This document shows, piece by piece, positions 21,058 to 47,714 of a DNA stretch of 48,247 nt (within the stretch, counting starts at the first letter, position 1; the number at the start of each line of letters is the position of its first letter). The DNA is from Anaerobranca gottschalkii DSM 13577. GTDB taxonomy: Bacteria > Bacillota > Proteinivoracia > Proteinivoracales > Proteinivoracaceae. A program made the translations under genes and the position numbers. The stretch is from contig NZ_FOIF01000011.1 of assembly GCF_900111575.1 (NCBI RefSeq), positions 1 through 48,247 on the forward strand, given 5' to 3'. The notes beneath the pieces are model-generated. The model ran no database searches. It saw only the letters and a list, made by a program, of their open reading frames with translations, and was not told the DNA's origin.

Positions 21058-22248
21058 ATGAAGAGTATATTCTTTATTCTCGTGGTTGTGTTATTTTTCA
21101 CAGGCTGTTCATCTCAAAATACGCTACCAGAAATGCCTCAAGGGGTTGTTCCTGCTGAGTACTGGGCGGATAAGTATCCAGATCAATACAATACTTACTT
21201 AAAAAATGCTGAAATGGAAGCCACAACTTTTGGTGGTTCAATTCCCGTTGATTATCTGGAAAAGTACCCAGACTTAAAAGTCCTTTATGCAGGTATGGGG
21301 TTTAGTAAAGACTATTTAAAGGCTAGAGGACATGTCTATTCCCTCGAAGATGCCATAAATACTGCTAGACCTAAACCAGGTGCCAGTTGTTTAACCTGTA
21401 AAACAGCGGATTACTTAGATATGGTAAATGAATATGGCAAAGATTTCTATGCTATGGATTTTACTGAAATGGCAGCTAAGGCAGTTAACCCCATTAGTTG
21501 CTATGACTGTCATCTAAGTACTCCAGGTGAAGCTGTCATCACTAGAAACCACTTAAAAGAAGCCTTAGAACTTCTAGATACCCAATTTAAAATGGGTGAT
21601 TTAACCTGTGCCCAATGCCACGTAGAATATTATCTTGACCCTGTAACTAAAGAAGTTGTTTTACCTTGGGAATATGGAATAACAGTCGATGGAATGGAAA
21701 AATATTTCGATGAACGGGGTTATTATGATTGGATTCATCCTACGACTGGAACTCCACTATTAAAGGTACAGCATCCAGAATTTGAAACATATTACGGCAG
21801 TGTACATAGCAAATTTGGCTTAAGCTGTATCGATTGTCATATGCCTAAAGTCGAAAATGATGATGGAGATTTGTTTAGATCCCATCACTGGACAAGTCCT
21901 TTAAAGTATATAGAAGCTTCCTGTATGGGTTGCCATACCGGAGATGCAGAGGACTTGATCGCCCGTGTTGAAGAAATTCAGTTAGGTGTATATACCAAAA
22001 CCAATGAAGTAAGTGCTCTAATAGTTCAGCTAATCCAGGAGTTAACAGAGGCGGTAGAAAGCGGCAAATACTCAGAAGAATTTTTAAATGAAGTTAGGAG
22101 TTATCACAGAAAAGCTCAATGGAGATGGGATTTTGTTTTCGTTGAAAATAGTACAGGATTCCATAACTCCAAGTTAGCCCACGAAACTTTAGATGCCGCC
22201 CGTTACTATGCGGAAAAAGGGCTGGAGTTGTTGAGAAATCAAAGATAA
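21058..22248 (+). CDS. nrfA: Pentahaem cytochrome c nitrite reductase (ammonia-forming), lipoprotein form
   Basis: This 396-residue protein has a lipoprotein signal (LFFTGC). Five haem motifs follow in NrfA order: the active-site CLTCK at 111-115, then CYDCH 148-152, CAQCH 184-188, CIDCH 257-261 and CMGCH 289-293. RGHVY (from residue 90) supplies the active-site Arg. VEYY at 189-192 and KVQH at 236-239 match the calcium-site Glu/Tyr/Lys/Gln and the active-site His. It reduces nitrite to ammonium with six electrons on the outer membrane face. No NrfH quinol dehydrogenase lies beside it, so the electron donor is unknown. ResB/ResC follow directly. Confidence 0.96.
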   Translation: MKSIFFILVVVLFFTGCSSQNTLPEMPQGVVPAEYWADKYPDQYNTYLKNAEMEATTFGGSIPVDYLEKYPDLKVLYAGMGFSKDYLKARGHVYSLEDAINTARPKPGASCLTCKTADYLDMVNEYGKDFYAMDFTEMAAKAVNPISCYDCHLSTPGEAVITRNHLKEALELLDTQFKMGDLTCAQCHVEYYLDPVTKEVVLPWEYGITVDGMEKYFDERGYYDWIHPTTGTPLLKVQHPEFETYYGSVHSKFGLSCIDCHMPKVENDDGDLFRSHHWTSPLKYIEASCMGCHTGDAEDLIARVEEIQLGVYTKTNEVSALIVQLIQELTEAVESGKYSEEFLNEVRSYHRKAQWRWDFVFVENSTGFHNSKLAHETLDAARYYAEKGLELLRNQR

Positions 22249-22280
22249 TCTAACTTAATATTTAATAAAAGATCTAATAT

Positions 22281-22303
22281 AAATGGGGCTTTATGCCCCA
22301 TTT
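22281..22303 (+). repeat. Hairpin between nrfA and resB
   Basis: A perfect 9-bp stem (AAATGGGGC with GCCCCATTT) encloses a 5-base loop, and no T run follows. It may stabilise the nrfA 3' end or attenuate transcription so that NrfA is made in excess of the maturation proteins. It is a weak terminator at best. Confidence 0.55.
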
Positions 22304-22341
22304 ACACAGGTTTTATAAAAAGAAAAAGGAGAGTAAAAGTA

Positions 22342-23634
22342 ATGAAAGAAGATAATATTTTAAAAGAAATTTGGAAAGCCCTTCATTCCATGAGGTTTGG
22401 AATAATTCTTTTACTCATTATTGGCATTTCTTCTATAGCAGGAACTGTAATTCCCCAAAAAAATCCCTTAATTTTTTATCAACGGGAATATAGTTCTTTT
22501 ATGTATACTATTATAACCACATTAAATTTACACGATGTTTATAATTCTTGGTGGTTTATTACTATGATGGTATTACTGGCTGTTAATTTAGTATTATGTA
22601 GTATCATCAGGCTACCTAAAATTATCAAAAGAATGGTAAATGTCCCTTCTTTAGATAAAGAATTAAATAGAAAAGATTTTTTAGTTAAAAAAGTAATATC
22701 TAATAGTGAAGTAAATATTGAAAAACTATTTAGGAAAGGAAAATTTAATAGGGTAAAGAAAATAGAAACTTCTAAAGGCACTTATTTTTTCGCCCATAAA
22801 AATAGGCTAGGTTATTTAGGCTCTTGGTTATCCCATGTAGGGTTATTGATAATAATACTATCTTATATGTTTGGGCAAATTACTGGTTTTGAAACATATA
22901 TCTATGGAGTTCCTGGGATTTCTGAAAGGGTAGAAGGTACTCCATATGAAATACAAATAGATGATTTTCGTATTGAGTTTAGAGATGACCTAACAGTCAA
23001 TCAATATATAAGTAATATTACAGTTAAAGACTTTAATAGCAAAAAAGCTATTAAAGCAGGAGAACTTTCTGTTAACAACCCCTTTAGGGCTGAGAAATTT
23101 AGTGTATATCAAAACGGTACCGGTTGGGCAGTTGATATGAAGTTAAAGCGAAATGGTGAAGAAATTGCCAATCGAATCCTTTATCAAGGCGAAATCCACG
23201 TAGATGATAATCAAAGGATTGCTTTACAATTTGTTAATTTTTATCCCCATTTTGATAACTCCTCTGGAAGACCCCGTACCATTAGCCCATTCCCAGATAA
23301 TCCAAAGCTCCTTTATACTATTTTTTATGAGGGGCGGAGAGTTGATATGAATGTCATCGGAATGGGTGAAGAACTAAATTGGGAAGAATATACCTTTATC
23401 ATAGATAACCCTAGACACTTTACTCTCCTGCAAATTACCAGTGATCCAGGAATACCTGGTGCTAAGTTGGGAAGTTTATTGTTACTCCATGGACTTATGT
23501 TTGCATTTTACTTCTTCCCTAAACAACTTAAAGCCTTGAAAATGAAAGATGGAAAAGTGATTATTTGGGGAGATACCGATAAAAACAAAGAAAATTTTAA
23601 AGAAGAAATTGAAAGATTATTAAATATTTATTAG
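22342..23634 (+). CDS. resB: ResB/Ccs1 cytochrome c biogenesis protein
   Basis: This 430-residue membrane protein starts in the ResB style (LHSMRFGIILLLIIGISSIAGTVIPQ). There is a second membrane segment near residue 70, a third at about 165-185 (GSWLSHVGLLIIILSYMFG) with a likely haem-ligand His, a large extracytoplasmic domain and a last membrane segment near 385. With ResC it forms the system II haem lyase that attaches haem to CxxCH motifs. It follows nrfA and precedes resC by 12 bp, so the operon supplies its own maturation. GGAGAG precedes the ATG. Confidence 0.93.
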   Translation: MKEDNILKEIWKALHSMRFGIILLLIIGISSIAGTVIPQKNPLIFYQREYSSFMYTIITTLNLHDVYNSWWFITMMVLLAVNLVLCSIIRLPKIIKRMVNVPSLDKELNRKDFLVKKVISNSEVNIEKLFRKGKFNRVKKIETSKGTYFFAHKNRLGYLGSWLSHVGLLIIILSYMFGQITGFETYIYGVPGISERVEGTPYEIQIDDFRIEFRDDLTVNQYISNITVKDFNSKKAIKAGELSVNNPFRAEKFSVYQNGTGWAVDMKLKRNGEEIANRILYQGEIHVDDNQRIALQFVNFYPHFDNSSGRPRTISPFPDNPKLLYTIFYEGRRVDMNVIGMGEELNWEEYTFIIDNPRHFTLLQITSDPGIPGAKLGSLLLLHGLMFAFYFFPKQLKALKMKDGKVIIWGDTDKNKENFKEEIERLLNIY

Positions 23635-23646
23635 AGGAGGAGAGTT

Positions 23647-24477
23647 ATGGAACTTCAGAGATTTCTTCAGATAGAAAACAGTTTTTTTAATATAGCCATC
23701 ACCTCGTATATTGTTTCTATGGTCCTATATTTTCTCTTTTTTGTTATTAAAAAAGAGAGCTATGGTAAATACGGATCCTTTTTTGTTAAAATTGCTTTAG
23801 TTTTCCATACTGTAGCTATAATTGCTAGGGGATTTGGAGCAAACAGAATCCCTTTAACTAATCAATACGAATTTGCCACAAGTTTTGCTTGGGGTATTGC
23901 CTTATGTTTTATAATCTTTGAACAAAAATATGGGTACAAAGCTATGGGTACTTTTGTAACCCCTATAATCTTTATTATTATTGGTTATGCAGCTATGCAA
24001 TCAAAGGATGTCCGTCCTTTAATGCCTGCTTTACAAAGTTATTGGTTAGTTTTCCACGTATCTACAGCGGTAATAGGCTATGGATCCTTTGGTGTTGCCT
24101 GTGGAGTATCTTGTATGTATTTATTAAAAAACAAGTTCCCAAAGGACAATTTTCTCAATAAACACATGCCATCTTTAGAAACCCTGGATTTAATTAGTTA
24201 TCGGGCCATAGCTTTAGGGTTCATCTTCCTAACTTTGTGTATAGTAACTGGTGCCATTTGGGCTGAACAGGCTTGGGGTAGGTATTGGGCTTGGGATCCT
24301 AAAGAAACATGGTCCTTCATTACCTGGATAATTTATTCTGTTTACCTCCATGTCCGAATAACCAAAGGTTTAAAAGGTAAAAAAGCAGCAATACTAAGTG
24401 TTATAGGATTTTTATGTGTATTATTTACCTATATCGGTGTTAATACCCTACTACCTAGTTTGCATAGTTATGCTTAA
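23647..24477 (+). CDS. resC: ResC/CcsA cytochrome c biogenesis protein
   Basis: This 276-residue integral membrane protein has about eight membrane segments. The Trp-rich haem-handling signature WGRYWAWDPKETWSFITW lies near residue 215. Conserved histidines are seen in ALVFHT, WLVFHVSTA and near the C-terminus (LPSLHSY). It is the haem export/ligation partner of ResB in system II. AGAGGAGGAG precedes the ATG. NrfA-type CxxCK haem attachment often needs a dedicated lyase; here this ResBC pair is the only candidate in view. Confidence 0.94.
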   Translation: MELQRFLQIENSFFNIAITSYIVSMVLYFLFFVIKKESYGKYGSFFVKIALVFHTVAIIARGFGANRIPLTNQYEFATSFAWGIALCFIIFEQKYGYKAMGTFVTPIIFIIIGYAAMQSKDVRPLMPALQSYWLVFHVSTAVIGYGSFGVACGVSCMYLLKNKFPKDNFLNKHMPSLETLDLISYRAIALGFIFLTLCIVTGAIWAEQAWGRYWAWDPKETWSFITWIIYSVYLHVRITKGLKGKKAAILSVIGFLCVLFTYIGVNTLLPSLHSYA

Positions 24478-24489
24478 GGGGTGTTTTAA

Positions 24490-25299
24490 ATGGATTGGTC
24501 TAAGGAAGCTGAGGAAAGGATAAAAAAAGCTCCCTTTTTCATTAGAAACTTTGCAAAGAAAAAGGCAGAAGAAGTAGCTAAGTTAAGGGGTAAAGAAATT
24601 GTTGATATAGAAGATGTTGAGTTGGCAAAAAGAAATAAAGATTTAGAGGATTTAACTAAATTAGATTTAACTATTGAAGGTATCGAAAATACAAAGTATA
24701 AAGAAATTGCCCTTTGTGGAGGTTTAAAGGGATGTCCCCTAACTTTATTTAACGATGAAGAAGTAGCTTTATTATTAGATAGGATTATTAAAAAGTTACA
24801 CTTAGAAGAAAAAATCGGTAAAAAAATTCAAGGCCCAATCCTATATCACCACAAATTTAAAGCTGCCATTAGCGGTTGTCCTAATAACTGTTCACAACCT
24901 CAGATCAAAGATATAGGGGTTATTGGTTATGTAAAACCAAAAATTATTTCTGGCTTTTGCATACAATGTAATAGATGTATCAGTTCTTGCCCTGAGAAAT
25001 TAATAACCCTATCCCAAGACCCTATAATCGATTATAGCCAATGCTTGGATTGTGGACTATGCATTAGGGCCTGCCCTACTAAATCCATCACTGAAGGGGA
25101 AAAGGGATATAGAGTAATAATAGGGGGAAGATTGGGGAGAAAACCCCACCTAGCCCAACATTTGGTCAATGTAACTACTTTAGAAGAATTAGAAGATATT
25201 TTAACTAAAATATTATTGTTTTATATCAAAACTCTAGAAGAAAATAAAAATTTTAGTCGTATGATAGAGTGTTTAGGGATAGAGGGATTAAATCTATGA
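24490..25299 (+). CDS. Sirohaem reductase-like protein: PCP_red domain, sirohaem domain and 2[4Fe-4S] ferredoxin
   Basis: This 269-residue protein has an N-terminal PCP_red-like segment (residues ~1-48; EERIKKAPFFIRNFAKKKAEE). A sirohaem/[4Fe-4S] site follows, with CGGLKGC at 76-82 (CX5C) and CPNNC at 130-134 (CX3C). Two ferredoxin motifs come last, at 157-167 and 185-195. This is the compact layout of small sulfite/nitrite reductases of anaerobes; no signal peptide, so cytoplasmic. It is the fourth gene after nrfA, with 12 bp to resC. Sulfite, nitrite or another small oxyanion could be the substrate. The sequence shows cofactor binding, not specificity. Confidence 0.85.
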   Translation: MDWSKEAEERIKKAPFFIRNFAKKKAEEVAKLRGKEIVDIEDVELAKRNKDLEDLTKLDLTIEGIENTKYKEIALCGGLKGCPLTLFNDEEVALLLDRIIKKLHLEEKIGKKIQGPILYHHKFKAAISGCPNNCSQPQIKDIGVIGYVKPKIISGFCIQCNRCISSCPEKLITLSQDPIIDYSQCLDCGLCIRACPTKSITEGEKGYRVIIGGRLGRKPHLAQHLVNVTTLEELEDILTKILLFYIKTLEENKNFSRMIECLGIEGLNL

Positions 25300-38505: not shown

Positions 38506-41105
38506 ATGAAATTTATGCAGGAATTTCTAAAAACTAAAGTTATTGTTCCCCCATTAAACACAAAGGTGGTACCCCGTTATGAACTTGTAAACAAATTAAA
38601 TGATAATTTACAAGTTGGAAAAATGTTTTGTCGTAAATTAACCCTTTTTTGTGCCCCTGCCGGCTATGGCAAAACTACATTAACAAGGATATGGTTGGAA
38701 AAAGAAAAAGAAAGTACAGCTTGGGTATCCTTAGATGAACATGATAATAGCCCTTCACTGTTTTGGGGCTATATAATAACTGCTCTACAAAAATTCGACA
38801 GGAATTTAGGGAAAAATATCCTTCACTTTCTTAATTCCAATAATTATTTTACTGAGTGGTCATCTAAAAGCATTATAGTCCCATTATTAAATGAGTTAAT
38901 GGAAAGGGAAGGGATAATGTATTTAGTCCTTGATGACTATCATTTGATAACAAACTCTGAAATTCATCAAGGAATGGCTTATTTTATTGAAAACCTACCT
39001 CCAAACCTTCATCTAGTTGTTACTACCCGTTCTCTACCACCTTGGCCACTTGCCAAGTGGAGAGCTAAAGAAAAGCTTTTAGAGGTTGGAGTTAATCAAT
39101 TAAAGTTTACAATAGAAGAAATTTCTACAATGCTGAAACTATACGATAACTTGTTATTAAAAGATGAAGAAATAGAAATTTTATTAACAAAAACTGCAGG
39201 TTGGGTTACCGGCTTAAAACTAGCTATATCTTCCCTCTTATCAACGAAAGATGTGGAAGGTTTTATTAAAAAGTTTTCGGGAAATCACTGTTCTATTTTA
39301 CATTTTCTAACTGAAGAAGTATTTAATAACCAAGAAAAAGAAATTAGAGATTTCCTTTTAGAAACCTCTATTTTCCAAAGATTTAATTCTACCCTTTGTG
39401 ATCAAATTACTGAACGGTCCAATAGTGAAAAAATATTAGCTAAACTGGATAGAGATAACCTCTTTTTAATACCCTTAGATGAGAAAAAAAGTTGGTTTAC
39501 ATACCACCCTCTTTTTTCTCAAATATTATTATCAATGCTAAAAAAACATTATTACGAAAAATTTATCCACTTAAATCAAAGGGCATTTGACTATTTTCTT
39601 CAATCTAACGAACCTAGTACTGCCCTTTATCATAGCTATATAATCAATGACTTTGATAAAACCGCCTTTGTACTCCATCATTTTCCTATCGAACAATTAT
39701 TTAATTTAAACCATTTGCAATTAATCCATAAATATTTCCAAAACTTCTCTTTAGATATTTTAAAAAAATATCCCCGTTTGATTTTATATAAGGCATTTAT
39801 AATGCTGATATTAGGTGATATGAAAAAAGTCGAATATTACCTAAATTTAGCCAGTGAAGTTAATTCTTCAGATGAAGGTTATTTAGGTATTTTAACGACT
39901 ATCCAGGTTTATTATAAAATTTATGCTGGCAAAGTTTGTTTGACAGATGTTTTAGAAACTAGTAAAAAGGCATTAAATTTATTGCCCCAAGGGGATTTCT
40001 TTTGGTCTATGGCAACAACGGTTGTCTGTGGCGATGCTTTGTTTTTTTCCGGTGAATTTAAAAAAGCCCATCATTATTACTTAAAAGCTTATTCTATCAT
40101 ACTGATAATCAAAATCCCTATTTCATTTTATCTACCGGAACAAAGGTCGCTATTACATTATTTAAACTTGGAAAATTAAAAGAAACGGAAGAATTAATAC
40201 AAAAGTTAATTCAATTAATTAGGGAGCATGGTTTTTCTTTTATCAGTCGGGTAGGGGGTATTTGGGCTTTAAAAGGTGCAGTGGAAATGGAAAAAGGAAA
40301 TATAGAAGGAGCAGAACATTATATAGAAAAAGGGCTATATTTAAGTAAACCTGAAAAACCATATTATATTTGGAACTCATTTTATAAAGTAGCTTTATTG
40401 AATTACCAGAAAAAATATCACCAAGCTTTAGAGTTAATAAATGAAATTAACTTTAACAGCTCAGAAACTCTTTCATCAGTCTTCCTTTACATTTCAGCCC
40501 TCTGGGAAAGTCGTATTAACTTAAAATTAGGAAATAAGTTTAAAGCTAAAGAAATTTTATCCTCTCTGGGGATTAAGGAAAATAGCCTCGTCCAGTATGG
40601 TCTAGAAGAAGGATATTTAATATTATTTAATATCCTATTAGAAGAAGAAAAAATTTCCGCAGCTATAGGTAAACAGTTGAAAATAATTGAAGAAAATGCC
40701 CAGTTAAAAGGTGATAAAAAGCTATATATTGAAACTTTGCTTTTATCCTCCCGTTTAGAAAAAAAATTAGGAAATAGAGAAAGGGCAGAAAAAATCTTAG
40801 AAAAGGCTAAAAAAGTGGCCGAAGATTCCGGTTATTATCAAATTATTAAAGAAGAAAAAATAAATATCCCTATACAAGTAAACAGCTCCCAAAATTCCTA
40901 TGATTTAGTAGAAGATTTAACTACTAGGGAATTAGAAATTCTACAATTACTAGGTTTAGGGTTTAGTAACCAACAGATCGCCGATAAGTTGTTCCTAACG
41001 GTAGGAACAGTTAAATGGTATACCAGCAATATTTATGGAAAATTAGGGGTTAAAAGCAGAACCCAAGCTGTAGCAATGGGTAGAAAGTTAAAGCTATTTG
41101 ACTAA
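38506..41105 (+). pseudogene. MalT-like LuxR-family regulator interrupted by one frameshift
   Basis: The N-terminal part (38506-40179, 557 codons) has a STAND-type ATPase with Walker A APAGYGKTTL and Walker B LVLDDYH, then helical repeats. The C-terminal part is in another frame up to 41105. It has further TPR-like repeats and a LuxR HTH (LTTRELEILQLLGLGFSNQQIADKL and TVKWYTSNIYGKLG). The first frame turns to nonsense around 40095-40100. There the downstream frame reads TDNQNPYFILSTGTKVA, so one base appears missing near 40098; a repaired gene would give about 866 residues. It could be a recent real mutation or a sequencing error. It would otherwise be a ligand-sensing activator, maybe of the divergent exporter. 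Confidence 0.85.
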
Positions 41106-44428: not shown

Positions 44429-44456
44429 ACCCCACTTAGTATTTACCAAGTGGGGT
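44429..44456 (-). terminator. Terminator after the chemoreceptor fusion gene
   Basis: A perfect 9-bp stem (ACCCCACTT with AAGTGGGGT) encloses a 10-base loop. On the minus strand only ATTATT follows, so it is weak there; the T run is on the plus strand. It separates the fusion gene (stop at 44468) from the DUF362 gene start at 44394. Confidence 0.65.
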
Positions 44457-44467
44457 TTTTCCTATTG

Positions 44468-46912
44468 TTATCCCTTAATAATATTATCAAATTTAATCAT
44501 AGCTATATTAGATAAATTTACATTAAGGACATCTTCTCCGGTGATGATTCCGTTGTGGGGATGATACAAAGGGATACATGGGACATCTTCAGAGAGTATT
44601 TGTTGAATTTCCTTATAATATTCCAACCTTCTCATGGGATTAGTCGTTTCTTTAGCCAGTTTTAGCAACTTATCTAAATAATCATTTTCATAACCACATA
44701 AATTTGAAGTACTTCCTGTGACAAATAGTGGCTCAATAAATGAAGAAGGTTCCATAGCATCTGCATACCAACCATAAAAGAAAATATCATAACCCTTTTG
44801 TAGTTTTGTGGATCTATATTCTTCATTTGATACATTAGTGTATTTACATGTTAAGCCTAGTGCCTTTAGATCTTCTTCGATAAATTTTAGTACAGGATGG
44901 GTCTTCGGTCCACAAAGGATATTAACAGGTCTACTTAAATTCACCTTTTCTTTCCTTAAAATTTCTTTAGCTTTTTCAGGATTATATTCATAACCTCTAA
45001 CATGGTCAGTAGGAATTAACCCGGAAGGAACTACACATTTTGCTATAGAGCCTAACCCACCTGTCAATTCATCAATTATCCTCTTTTTGTTAATTGCATA
45101 ATTAAAGGCTTTCCTTACTGCTTTTTTAGTAAAAGGAGAGTCGGTATTTTTAATTTTAAAACCAATAAAGATAGTTCCTAAAAGTTCATAACTTTTAAGT
45201 CTATTGTAATATGGTGTTTCTTTGATTTCTTCTAACTCTTTTTTGTTAGATACTATGAAGAAATCATATTTTTTATTTTTAAAACTTTCTAAGGGATTAT
45301 CATCTTTTTTTACTACATTTATGTAATCACAATAGGGTTTTCCACCAAAATAATTATCAAAGGCTTTAAGTTTATAACCTTGTTCATTGACCTCTTCTAT
45401 CATATAAGCTCCACAGCCTATGAATCTTCCCCGTTCTACTTCTTCAGGATCCATCACAGCAAAACAAGGTTGGGATAAAAACAGCAAAAATCCACTAAAA
45501 GGAAAAGAAAGCTTAATTGATAAACTGTAATCCCCTAGTACCTTAATTCCCTTAACTTCCTGAGCTTTTCCTTCCATGAATTCTTTAGCACCTTCTATGT
45601 AATCAATAAACCAGGTGTTAGGGGAGTTGAGCTTTGGTGATAATACCCTTTCTAAAGAGTATTTGATGTGCTTTGCATAGATTTTTTTCCCATTATGGAA
45701 AGTAGCATTATTTCTAATATTAAATACCCAAGTTAAATTATCATCTTCAACATACCAGTTTTTAGCTAAAGCGGGTAATACATCTCCACTTTCACTGGTT
45801 GTAAGTAAACCGGCATGAATATTTGATAAAAATCTTACATCTTCTATACTGTTATTAATAGCTGGATCTAAACTAGGCAAAGAACCTCCAAAGTAAAATG
45901 TCAGGTTAATAGGTTCTTTTTCAACATCGGCAGTTTCTTTAATTAATTCCTTTGTCATTCCGTCTAATAAAAGAGCAACTTGACCTAAAGCCGTTAATGC
46001 TGCTTTAGTAAACTGGGTATTCATTAAAGCACTTTCCACCATTGACATTGCCTTTTCGGAGATCTTTGTCATATTATCTGTTGACATTAGTATTGCCTCT
46101 AGGCCACTGCTTTGCTCATTAATCGAACTATTTATTTCTTTCATACTGGCAATTAACTGATTTATAGATGATTGAATTTTGTTAAAAGATGTATTGGATT
46201 TTTCCGCTATCTGTGAACCCTCAATTATTTTTTCGTTACTCTTTTCAATAGCAGCAACTGTCTTTGTTACATTTAAATTGATATTCTCAATAATTTTTGA
46301 AATATCATCGGCAGATTTTGCACTTCTATCGGCTAAGACTTTAACCTCTTTAGCAACTACGGCAAATCCTAACCCAGCTTCTCCAGCTCTAGCTGCTTCT
46401 ATCGCTGCATTTAATGATAATAAATTGGTTTGATCGGCAATCCCTTTTATTATACCTAAAATACTATCAATTTGTGCAGCGGCAGATTTTAATTCTGTTA
46501 TTTCATTCATAACAGAAGTTATTGATTTTTTAATTTCTTCCATAGCTTCTAAAGTATTATGGACAGCTTTACTACCTTCTTCTATGACATCTAAGGTATC
46601 TTTCGCTGTTTGATAGGATGTGTCGGAACTGGCAGCCAATTCCTCTGCCATGGCAGAGTAGTTGGTTATTTCATCAACAACGTGGTTAATATACTTTACT
46701 TGTTCTTCTACCCTCTTGGAAATGGCTTCAATGATACTAATTAAATTTTCCGTTTGGTTTTGGGAGTCTTTAATTCTAACATCCAAATTATGTAAAAGAT
46801 TTTCTTCATTTTGTTTAAGCTTTACTAATTTTTCTTGTCCTTTAATGTGTTCTTCAGTATTTATCCGGGCTAACTCTTCATCCTTTCTTTTTTTCATCCA
46901 TAATTTAAACAC
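44468..46912 (-). CDS. Soluble methyl-accepting chemotaxis protein fused to an SBP_bac_5 substrate-binding domain
   Basis: 814 residues with no signal peptide or membrane helix. Residues ~1-330 are coiled-coil chemoreceptor: the signalling tip at 159-195 reads [19 protein letters not shown] and [15 protein letters not shown], the CheA/CheW contact. Residues ~336-814 are a family 5 oligopeptide-binding domain ([62 protein letters not shown]). In normal proteins this domain is outside the cell; here it is C-terminal and cytoplasmic, like the sensor part of SgrR. Likely a cytoplasmic receptor for a small ligand such as a peptide. The GTG start has AAGGAGAGGGG upstream. No che genes lie nearby. 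Confidence 0.9.
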
Positions 46913-46979
46913 GGAACCATCCCCTCTCCTTATAAAAAATATTTTGATGAATCAATAATTTAAAAAATTATACCATATT

Positions 46980-47714
46980 TTATATTACTAATCCACCGTT
47001 AGGACTGATAATTTGGCCTGTAATAAAATTTGCTTTATCTGATGCAAGGAATAATACCAGTTCACCTACATCCCTTGGTGAACCGATTACCCCTAAAGGT
47101 GTTTCCCTTTTCAGTTCTTCCATTATTGATTCATCTATGTGGGAGATCATGTCTGTTTGAATAATCCCTGGACAAACACAATTAACTTGAATGTTAGATG
47201 GTCCAACTTCTTTAGCCAGTGCCTTGGTAAAACCAATTACTGCTGCCTTTGCAGCAGAGTAGTGTACTTCACAGGAAGCACCGGTTATTCCCCAGATTGA
47301 TGATATGTTAATAATCTTACCCTGTTTATTAGATATCATTTTAGGTAAAACACTTTGGCAGCAGTTGAATATCCCTTTAACATTGACATCAAAGATCCAA
47401 TCCCAATCCTCTTCAGATATATCAGTAAATAGTTTTTCTTGAGCAACACCGGCATTGTTTACTAAAACATCTATGTTGCCAAAGTAATTATATATAGTGG
47501 TAACCATTTTATCTACTTCTTTCCTGTCTCTGACATCAGCCTTTACTTTTATTGCACTGTAGTTATTATTAATTAGTTCCCGAAATAAACTTTCAGCAGC
47601 TTCTTCCCCCTGATAGTAGTTAATGGCTACATTGTAATTATTCTGTGCAAATAATTTAGCTGTTTCCCTTCCAATACCCCGGGATGCCCCTGTGATTAAG
47701 ACAGTTTTTTTCAT
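46980..47714 (-). CDS. ymfI: YmfI-like SDR, probable EF-P 5-aminopentanone reductase
   Basis: This 244-residue SDR has TGASRGIG, VLVNNAG, and the stretch INISSIWGITGASCEVHYS with the catalytic Ser and Tyr. The SSIWG-TGASCEV-YS signature matches B. subtilis YmfI, which finishes the 5-aminopentanol modification on elongation factor P. It differs from the SDR at 4028, which lacks that stretch. No efp gene is in view, so the assignment is from the signature. General FabG-like activity is the alternative. The ATG follows AAGAAGGGAT. Confidence 0.8.
   Translation of the reverse strand: MKKTVLITGASRGIGRETAKLFAQNNYNVAINYYQGEEAAESLFRELINNNYSAIKVKADVRDRKEVDKMVTTIYNYFGNIDVLVNNAGVAQEKLFTDISEEDWDWIFDVNVKGIFNCCQSVLPKMISNKQGKIINISSIWGITGASCEVHYSAAKAAVIGFTKALAKEVGPSNIQVNCVCPGIIQTDMISHIDESIMEELKRETPLGVIGSPRDVGELVLFLASDKANFITGQIISPNGGLVI

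Follow-up and report, generated by a model that had tools for sequence, protein, structure and literature searches.

The window analysed here, a stretch of 48,247 nucleotides from Anaerobranca gottschalkii DSM 13577, carries a gene (44468..46912, minus strand) in which a chemoreceptor (MCP) module is followed by a C-terminal family-5 solute-binding domain (SBP). By ORF analysis the reading frame is unbroken from a GTG start to the stop codon and encodes 814 residues, and both parts are matched in Pfam: MCPsignal over residues 103-284 (7.5e-44, 150 bits against a cut-off of 34.6) and SBP_bac_5 over residues 378-734 (4.5e-66, 224 bits, far above the cut-off). The Pfam scan returned no third domain at 0.001 on the 814-residue chain, with HAMP, PAS and HTH absent. 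Sequence searches of the PDB matched MCP fragments at about residues 50-315 and peptide-binding proteins at about residues 337-810. The first-pass annotation of this DNA had proposed an MCP tip and a full SBP_bac_5 domain in a single 814-residue chain, and this is what the uninterrupted frame and the two Pfam matches bear out. A ribosome-binding-site-like AAGGAGAGGGG (46921..46931, minus strand) lies upstream of the GTG start, a start Met homologous to that GTG is retained in relatives, and a genus relative carries a full-length ortholog at 91% identity.

The gene is flanked upstream by an SDR reductase and downstream by a DUF362 ferredoxin-type protein. Just past the stop codon a hairpin, CCCCACTTGGT..ACTAAGTGGGG (44430..44455, minus strand), can be read directly from the sequence and is probably a transcription terminator separating the DUF362 gene; the terminator scan did not call the hairpin at these positions, and the promoter scan gave a result no better than shuffles. 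Neighbours of the fusion differ between families, and the DUF362 ferredoxin gene alone follows it in both genus members. The SDR gene and the fusion are adjacent in the window (46912-46980), and a riboflavin-synthesis cluster lies between them in the genus relative (L087 4210-8107). There are no transporter genes beside the fusion at the locus and no conserved neighbour ties it to a peptide transporter. An operon with a transporter was considered and rejected, given that the neighbours vary between families and that a terminator-like hairpin precedes the DUF362 gene in the window. The sole free OppA-like protein in the genome that matches this SBP better than 1e-25 sits in its own transporter operon. 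Elsewhere in the window, a MalT-like LuxR regulator is present as two ORFs in different frames (38506-41105; 557 and 274 aa) and is apparently broken, and a cytochrome c552-type nitrite reductase gene is followed by what read as putative cytochrome c biogenesis genes (21058-25299).

The fusion gene is an orphan, located away from the che cluster. The genome holds che genes: CheA, CheW, CheC and CheD (the latter two assigned from reading the sequence) lie inside a flagellar gene cluster, CheR lies elsewhere, and the CheA in that cluster is the only one in the genome. CheA was also found in all 13 fusion-bearing genomes tested.

An AlphaFold model built with 23 sequences (mean pLDDT 82.6, pTM 0.66) shows two long helices (residues 2-174 and 183-325) followed, after a short linker, by a two-lobed domain that spans 336-814 and is mostly at pLDDT 85-95. 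The prediction gives the expected hairpin and a confident SBP fold, and the SBP extent given in the first-pass annotation (about 336-814) was accurate, with the coiled-coil hairpin running from about residue 31 to 325. The N-terminal arm of the hairpin (about residues 31-174; 46391..46822, minus strand) is supported by BLAST, in which fusion residues 54-324 align with residues 422-695 of one of the genome's own MCPs at equal distance to the tip. The C-terminal arm (residues 183-325; 45938..46366, minus strand) aligns without gaps to the own MCPs as far as their C-terminal end, and is joined to the SBP domain by a ten-residue linker (326-335; 45908..45937, minus strand). The spacing between tip and SBP is constant in 25 fusions: in all of them, the SBP match starts 159-164 residues past the MCP tip, and the genome's own MCPs, except for one short protein of 283 residues, end 161-162 residues past about the same point. 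Because these distances agree, the SBP is attached where an ordinary MCP ends.

The signalling tip (residues 168-190, with a conserved motif at about 164-187; 46343..46411, minus strand) is the predicted contact for CheA and CheW. It was defined from alignment A2 and tip motifs, its dN/dS between the two genus members is 0.008, and the earlier claim of an intact tip at about residues 159-195 is upheld. Within the genus of the window, residue 181 of the tip is Leu (L181) in place of the R or K found in most MCPs. A methylation-site-like stretch (residues 86-95; 46628..46657, minus strand), identified by consensus match, is kept in place in seven of the eight nearest fusions (the exception is L007) and in all five f58-type fusions scanned, and is absent from the f21 type; this single consensus-like site is fewer than in most of the genome's own MCPs. 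Tandem fusion paralogs in f21 genomes (L024, L025, L033 and L036) have altered MCP tips, reading EAARYDEGHGF with a one-residue deletion in L024/L033 and QSAHAGQAGRGF in the partner, a pattern suggesting that kinase contact is changed or lost in these receptors.

By hydropathy, the fusion shows no sign of a membrane helix or a signal peptide, as the first-pass annotation had also claimed. Its maximum Kyte-Doolittle 19-residue mean is 1.48, compared with 2.06-3.24 in seven other MCPs of the genome, and other fusions reach up to 1.71. By this measure the protein is of the soluble chemoreceptor class, a classification with which peripheral tethering would still be compatible. At its N-terminus is a tag of 12 residues (46877..46912, minus strand), hydrophobic or aromatic and then basic, and this pattern, which was picked after viewing the sequences, occurs in 22 of 27 fusions and in 7 of 165 other genes. 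Relatives that are otherwise strongly divergent share such starts, for example MNWFKRK, and the soluble receptor HemAT of B. subtilis presumably begins in a similar way. As a peripheral tether, the tag could hold the sensory end against the membrane, an arrangement that would suit an arm length-matched to membrane receptors.

The fusion is not confined to the genus. The MCP-SBP architecture was found in at least 24 other intact copies in several Bacillota groups, at identities down to about 26%, including Tissierella pigra (64%), Clostridium sp. Cult3, Clostridium sp. OS1-26 and several Tissierellia/Firmicutes MAGs. In a single draw of 398 Bacillota genomes, from which the fusion frequencies come, two further families with the fusion (f21 and f58) were recovered and 13 genomes bore it, three extra matches being free SBPs. 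The fusion is present in 8 of 8 genomes of one order and 3 of 4 of another. A tblastn search of plasmids did not find the full-length fusion and gave partial matches only, mostly to the SBP side. Each of the 23 sequences in alignment A2 gives matches to both Pfam families and to no other domain.

The two halves tell the same phylogenetic story. When 43 SBP domains are placed in a tree, the 21 from fusions group as a single clade (97/85), separate from the free SBPs that the same genomes encode and from E. coli OppA, DppA, NikA, GsiB and SgrR. A single clade (100/98) likewise unites the MCP halves; its one row that does not come from an intact fusion is a broken copy (L069 in G332) with its MCP and SBP parts in different frames. 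On these phylogenies, both halves derive from one ancestral, old fusion. Comparison of the two genus members gives dN/dS values of 0.053 (MCP arms) and 0.047 (SBP domain); at about 0.05 in each domain, both are under purifying selection. Two interrupted orthologs were also seen, in Tissierella sp. P1 (L006 3545-6005) and Clostridium sp. OS1-26 (L005 6001-8432); one is split into three ORFs, and the open frame of the other stops about 59 residues before the aligned end.

What the receptor might sense can be approached through its SBP domain (residues 336-814; 44471..45907, minus strand), assigned to family 5 by Pfam, PDB sequence matches, AlphaFold and Foldseek. Foldseek gives MppA (3.4e-36), DppE, OppA and a Mesorhizobium peptide-binding protein as the nearest solved folds, at E-values of about 1e-36 to 1e-34 and with TM-scores by target that lie mostly in the range 0.73-0.85; the match list also holds nickel, glutathione and signalling-molecule binders, family 5 being broad in its ligands. 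Alignment to E. coli OppA, DppA, GsiB, SgrR and NikA places Asp718 (44759..44761, minus strand) at the position of OppA Asp419 and DppA Asp408, a numbering verified on the E. coli sequences. These residues hold the peptide by the alpha-amine of its N-terminus. Of 25 fusions, 23 have Asp at this position, and its retention extends across families that are about 26-30% identical. In the pocket, the alpha-amine Asp is kept, and the carboxylate-binding arginines of OppA (R404/R413) and DppA (R355) are not, with T702 and F712 at the OppA positions and a gap at R355. The OppA arginines matter for certain peptide lengths only. Since the arginines that hold the C-terminal carboxylate in OppA and DppA are not conserved, the exact ligand may be something other than a plain peptide. 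In one adjacent pair of fusions (L037 and L045, G111:C54), Gly replaces the peptide Asp, and these may possibly have a different ligand.

A soluble chemoreceptor of the same design might instead use its SBP, in the manner of SgrR, to sense a non-peptide internal metabolite such as a sugar, a sugar phosphate or an amino-acid derivative. The unconserved arginines and the diverse ligands of family 5 are consistent with this idea, as is the response of the cytosolic SBP_bac_5 domains of SgrR and DsvR to carbon-source signals (PMC13060122). However, SgrR matches the SBP domain weakly (35 bits, compared with 162 for Opp4A) and sits on a very long separate branch in the tree, and SgrR, NikA and GsiB all lack the Asp718 equivalent that the fusions conserve. 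We consider a non-peptide ligand unlikely, albeit deserving of serious weight. The first-pass annotation had left the choice at a peptide or sugar-phosphate-like ligand; because Asp718 is conserved and the fold neighbours are MppA, DppE and OppA, a peptide with a free N-terminus is favoured and the sugar-phosphate option loses ground, such that a cytosolic peptide sensor appears likelier than a sugar-phosphate sensor.

Our preferred reading, which we hold with somewhat better than even confidence, is that the gene encodes a cytoplasmic chemoreceptor that has captured an oligopeptide-binding protein as its ligand-binding domain. We infer a peptide ligand from the fold together with Asp718, and kinase control from the tip together with the chemotaxis genes present. 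A dimer of the fusion would form a four-helix hairpin of the usual type, its tip on CheW and CheA and its SBP head opposite the tip, at the sensory end, connected to the last hairpin helix through the ten-residue linker. The two lobes would close around Asp718 on binding a peptide, or a molecule resembling one, whose N-terminus is free and which was imported or released in the cell; closure would shift the C-terminal helix and alter CheA activity, with the consequence that swimming would track the internal peptide supply. The short aromatic/basic tag may anchor the sensory end at the membrane, where the membrane receptors, with arms of the same length, would be its neighbours. The proposal that a soluble receptor reports an internal ligand to the chemotaxis kinase, also put forward in the first-pass annotation, is the best-supported reading and is partly borne out, in that solubility, tip, che genes and arm length all agree with it. 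Points that weigh against the preferred reading are L181 at the tip, the single methylation-like site (missing at that place from the f21 group), the lack of a conserved neighbour tied to a peptide transporter, and the unconserved carboxylate arginines.

Two further explanations would retain the protein and change its role. The SBP domain could be a rigid structural head that binds no ligand, with the receptor signalling something else or only modulating the array. That parts of this family can degenerate is evident from the f21/f58 tandem paralogs, in which tips are altered (L024/L033) or the Asp is lost (L037/L045), but the SBP domain of the fusion evolves under a dN/dS as low as that of the MCP arms, its pocket Asp persists across families of deep divergence, and its model confidence is high, all of which make a passive head improbable. 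Slightly less probable again is an MCP-like protein with a non-flagellar output, through another CheA-linked pathway or a CheA-independent one. Its orphan location outside the che cluster, L181 at the tip and the degenerate tips of some relatives would fit such a role; the one CheA of the genome, however, lies in the flagellar cluster, the arms of the fusion are as long as those of the other MCPs in the genome, and the tip is otherwise canonical and highly constrained. An artefact in which a chemoreceptor gene and a neighbouring oppA were merged by a frameshift or assembly join at residues 320-340 can be dismissed, since the identical junction recurs in the at least 24 other intact and independent ORFs from many genomes and assemblies, and the SBP and MCP halves each give a single-clade phylogeny.

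In the textbook view, family 5 peptide-binding proteins work outside the cell together with transporters and receptors. A conserved family with such a domain on a soluble chemoreceptor raises the prospect that internal peptides could direct movement, and sensing of this kind would link nutrient uptake or protein turnover to taxis. A peptide sensor would suit the lifestyle of a proteolytic anaerobe. We propose more tentatively, and with confidence a little short of even, that the fusions constitute a distinct, old family of soluble receptors through which Bacillota that use peptides steer according to the oligopeptides in their cytosol. A domesticated peptide-binding protein would then be the receptor head inside the cell, and the aromatic/basic tag would keep it beneath the membrane, allowing it to join the ordinary receptor array. 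In practical terms, ligand, lobe closure and kinase control can be addressed together in one soluble chain, and the fusion may offer a membrane-free peptide receptor for structural work.

The preferred reading, a cytoplasmic receptor with a captured peptide-binding domain, can be set beside several known systems. With the periplasmic proteins OppA, DppA, MppA and DppE the fusion has in common the fold, the SBP_bac_5 family and the alpha-amine-binding Asp; unlike them, it has no signal peptide or lipobox, it is mounted on a cytoplasmic signalling module, and it does not keep the carboxylate arginines of OppA and DppA. In dipeptide chemotaxis of E. coli, a family-5 peptide-binding protein, DppA, already feeds the chemotaxis kinase, through Tap. 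There, two separate proteins meet in the periplasm, whereas the fusion is one cytosolic chain. For an SBP_bac_5 domain that serves a signalling protein as its sensor within the cell, the counterparts are SgrR and DsvR, in which it belongs to a transcription factor (PMC13060122). The output in those proteins is DNA binding, the SgrR SBP is distantly related and without the peptide Asp, and the SgrR-type N-terminal HTH is absent from the fusion. More broadly, a survey has reported that SBP profiles also match cytosolic proteins and sensor domains (PMC9602780).

Among chemoreceptors, no experimental study of this MCP-SBP fusion was found in the freely accessible papers searched, and McpK was the sole like case among them. 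Myxococcus xanthus McpK (MXAN_6456) is listed as a protein of 1048 residues with an MCP signal domain at 246-463 and a bacterial extracellular solute-binding domain (PMC3945109, Table 1). As far as that table entry goes, the remaining chain length suggests an SBP after the MCP, as in the fusion; the entry gives no SBP family, three predicted transmembrane segments, class 44H and no assigned function. The earlier statement that no characterised example exists thus stands for this exact protein in the searchable literature, and gives way for the wider design, for which McpK (PMC3945109, as tabulated) and TlpD (PMC12871147) are precedents. Soluble MCPs that carry their sensor at the C-terminus form a known class, and in one of them, Helicobacter pylori TlpD, the domain at that end regulates the receptor (PMC12871147). 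TlpD resembles the fusion in lacking a membrane helix and in the order of MCP hairpin and C-terminal ligand-binding domain, yet its sensor is a zinc-binding CZB domain, where the fusion carries a large two-lobed peptide-binding-protein fold and no detected N-terminal PAS domain. Judged by its predicted architecture, the fusion is a new, uncharacterised form of soluble C-terminal-sensor chemoreceptor.
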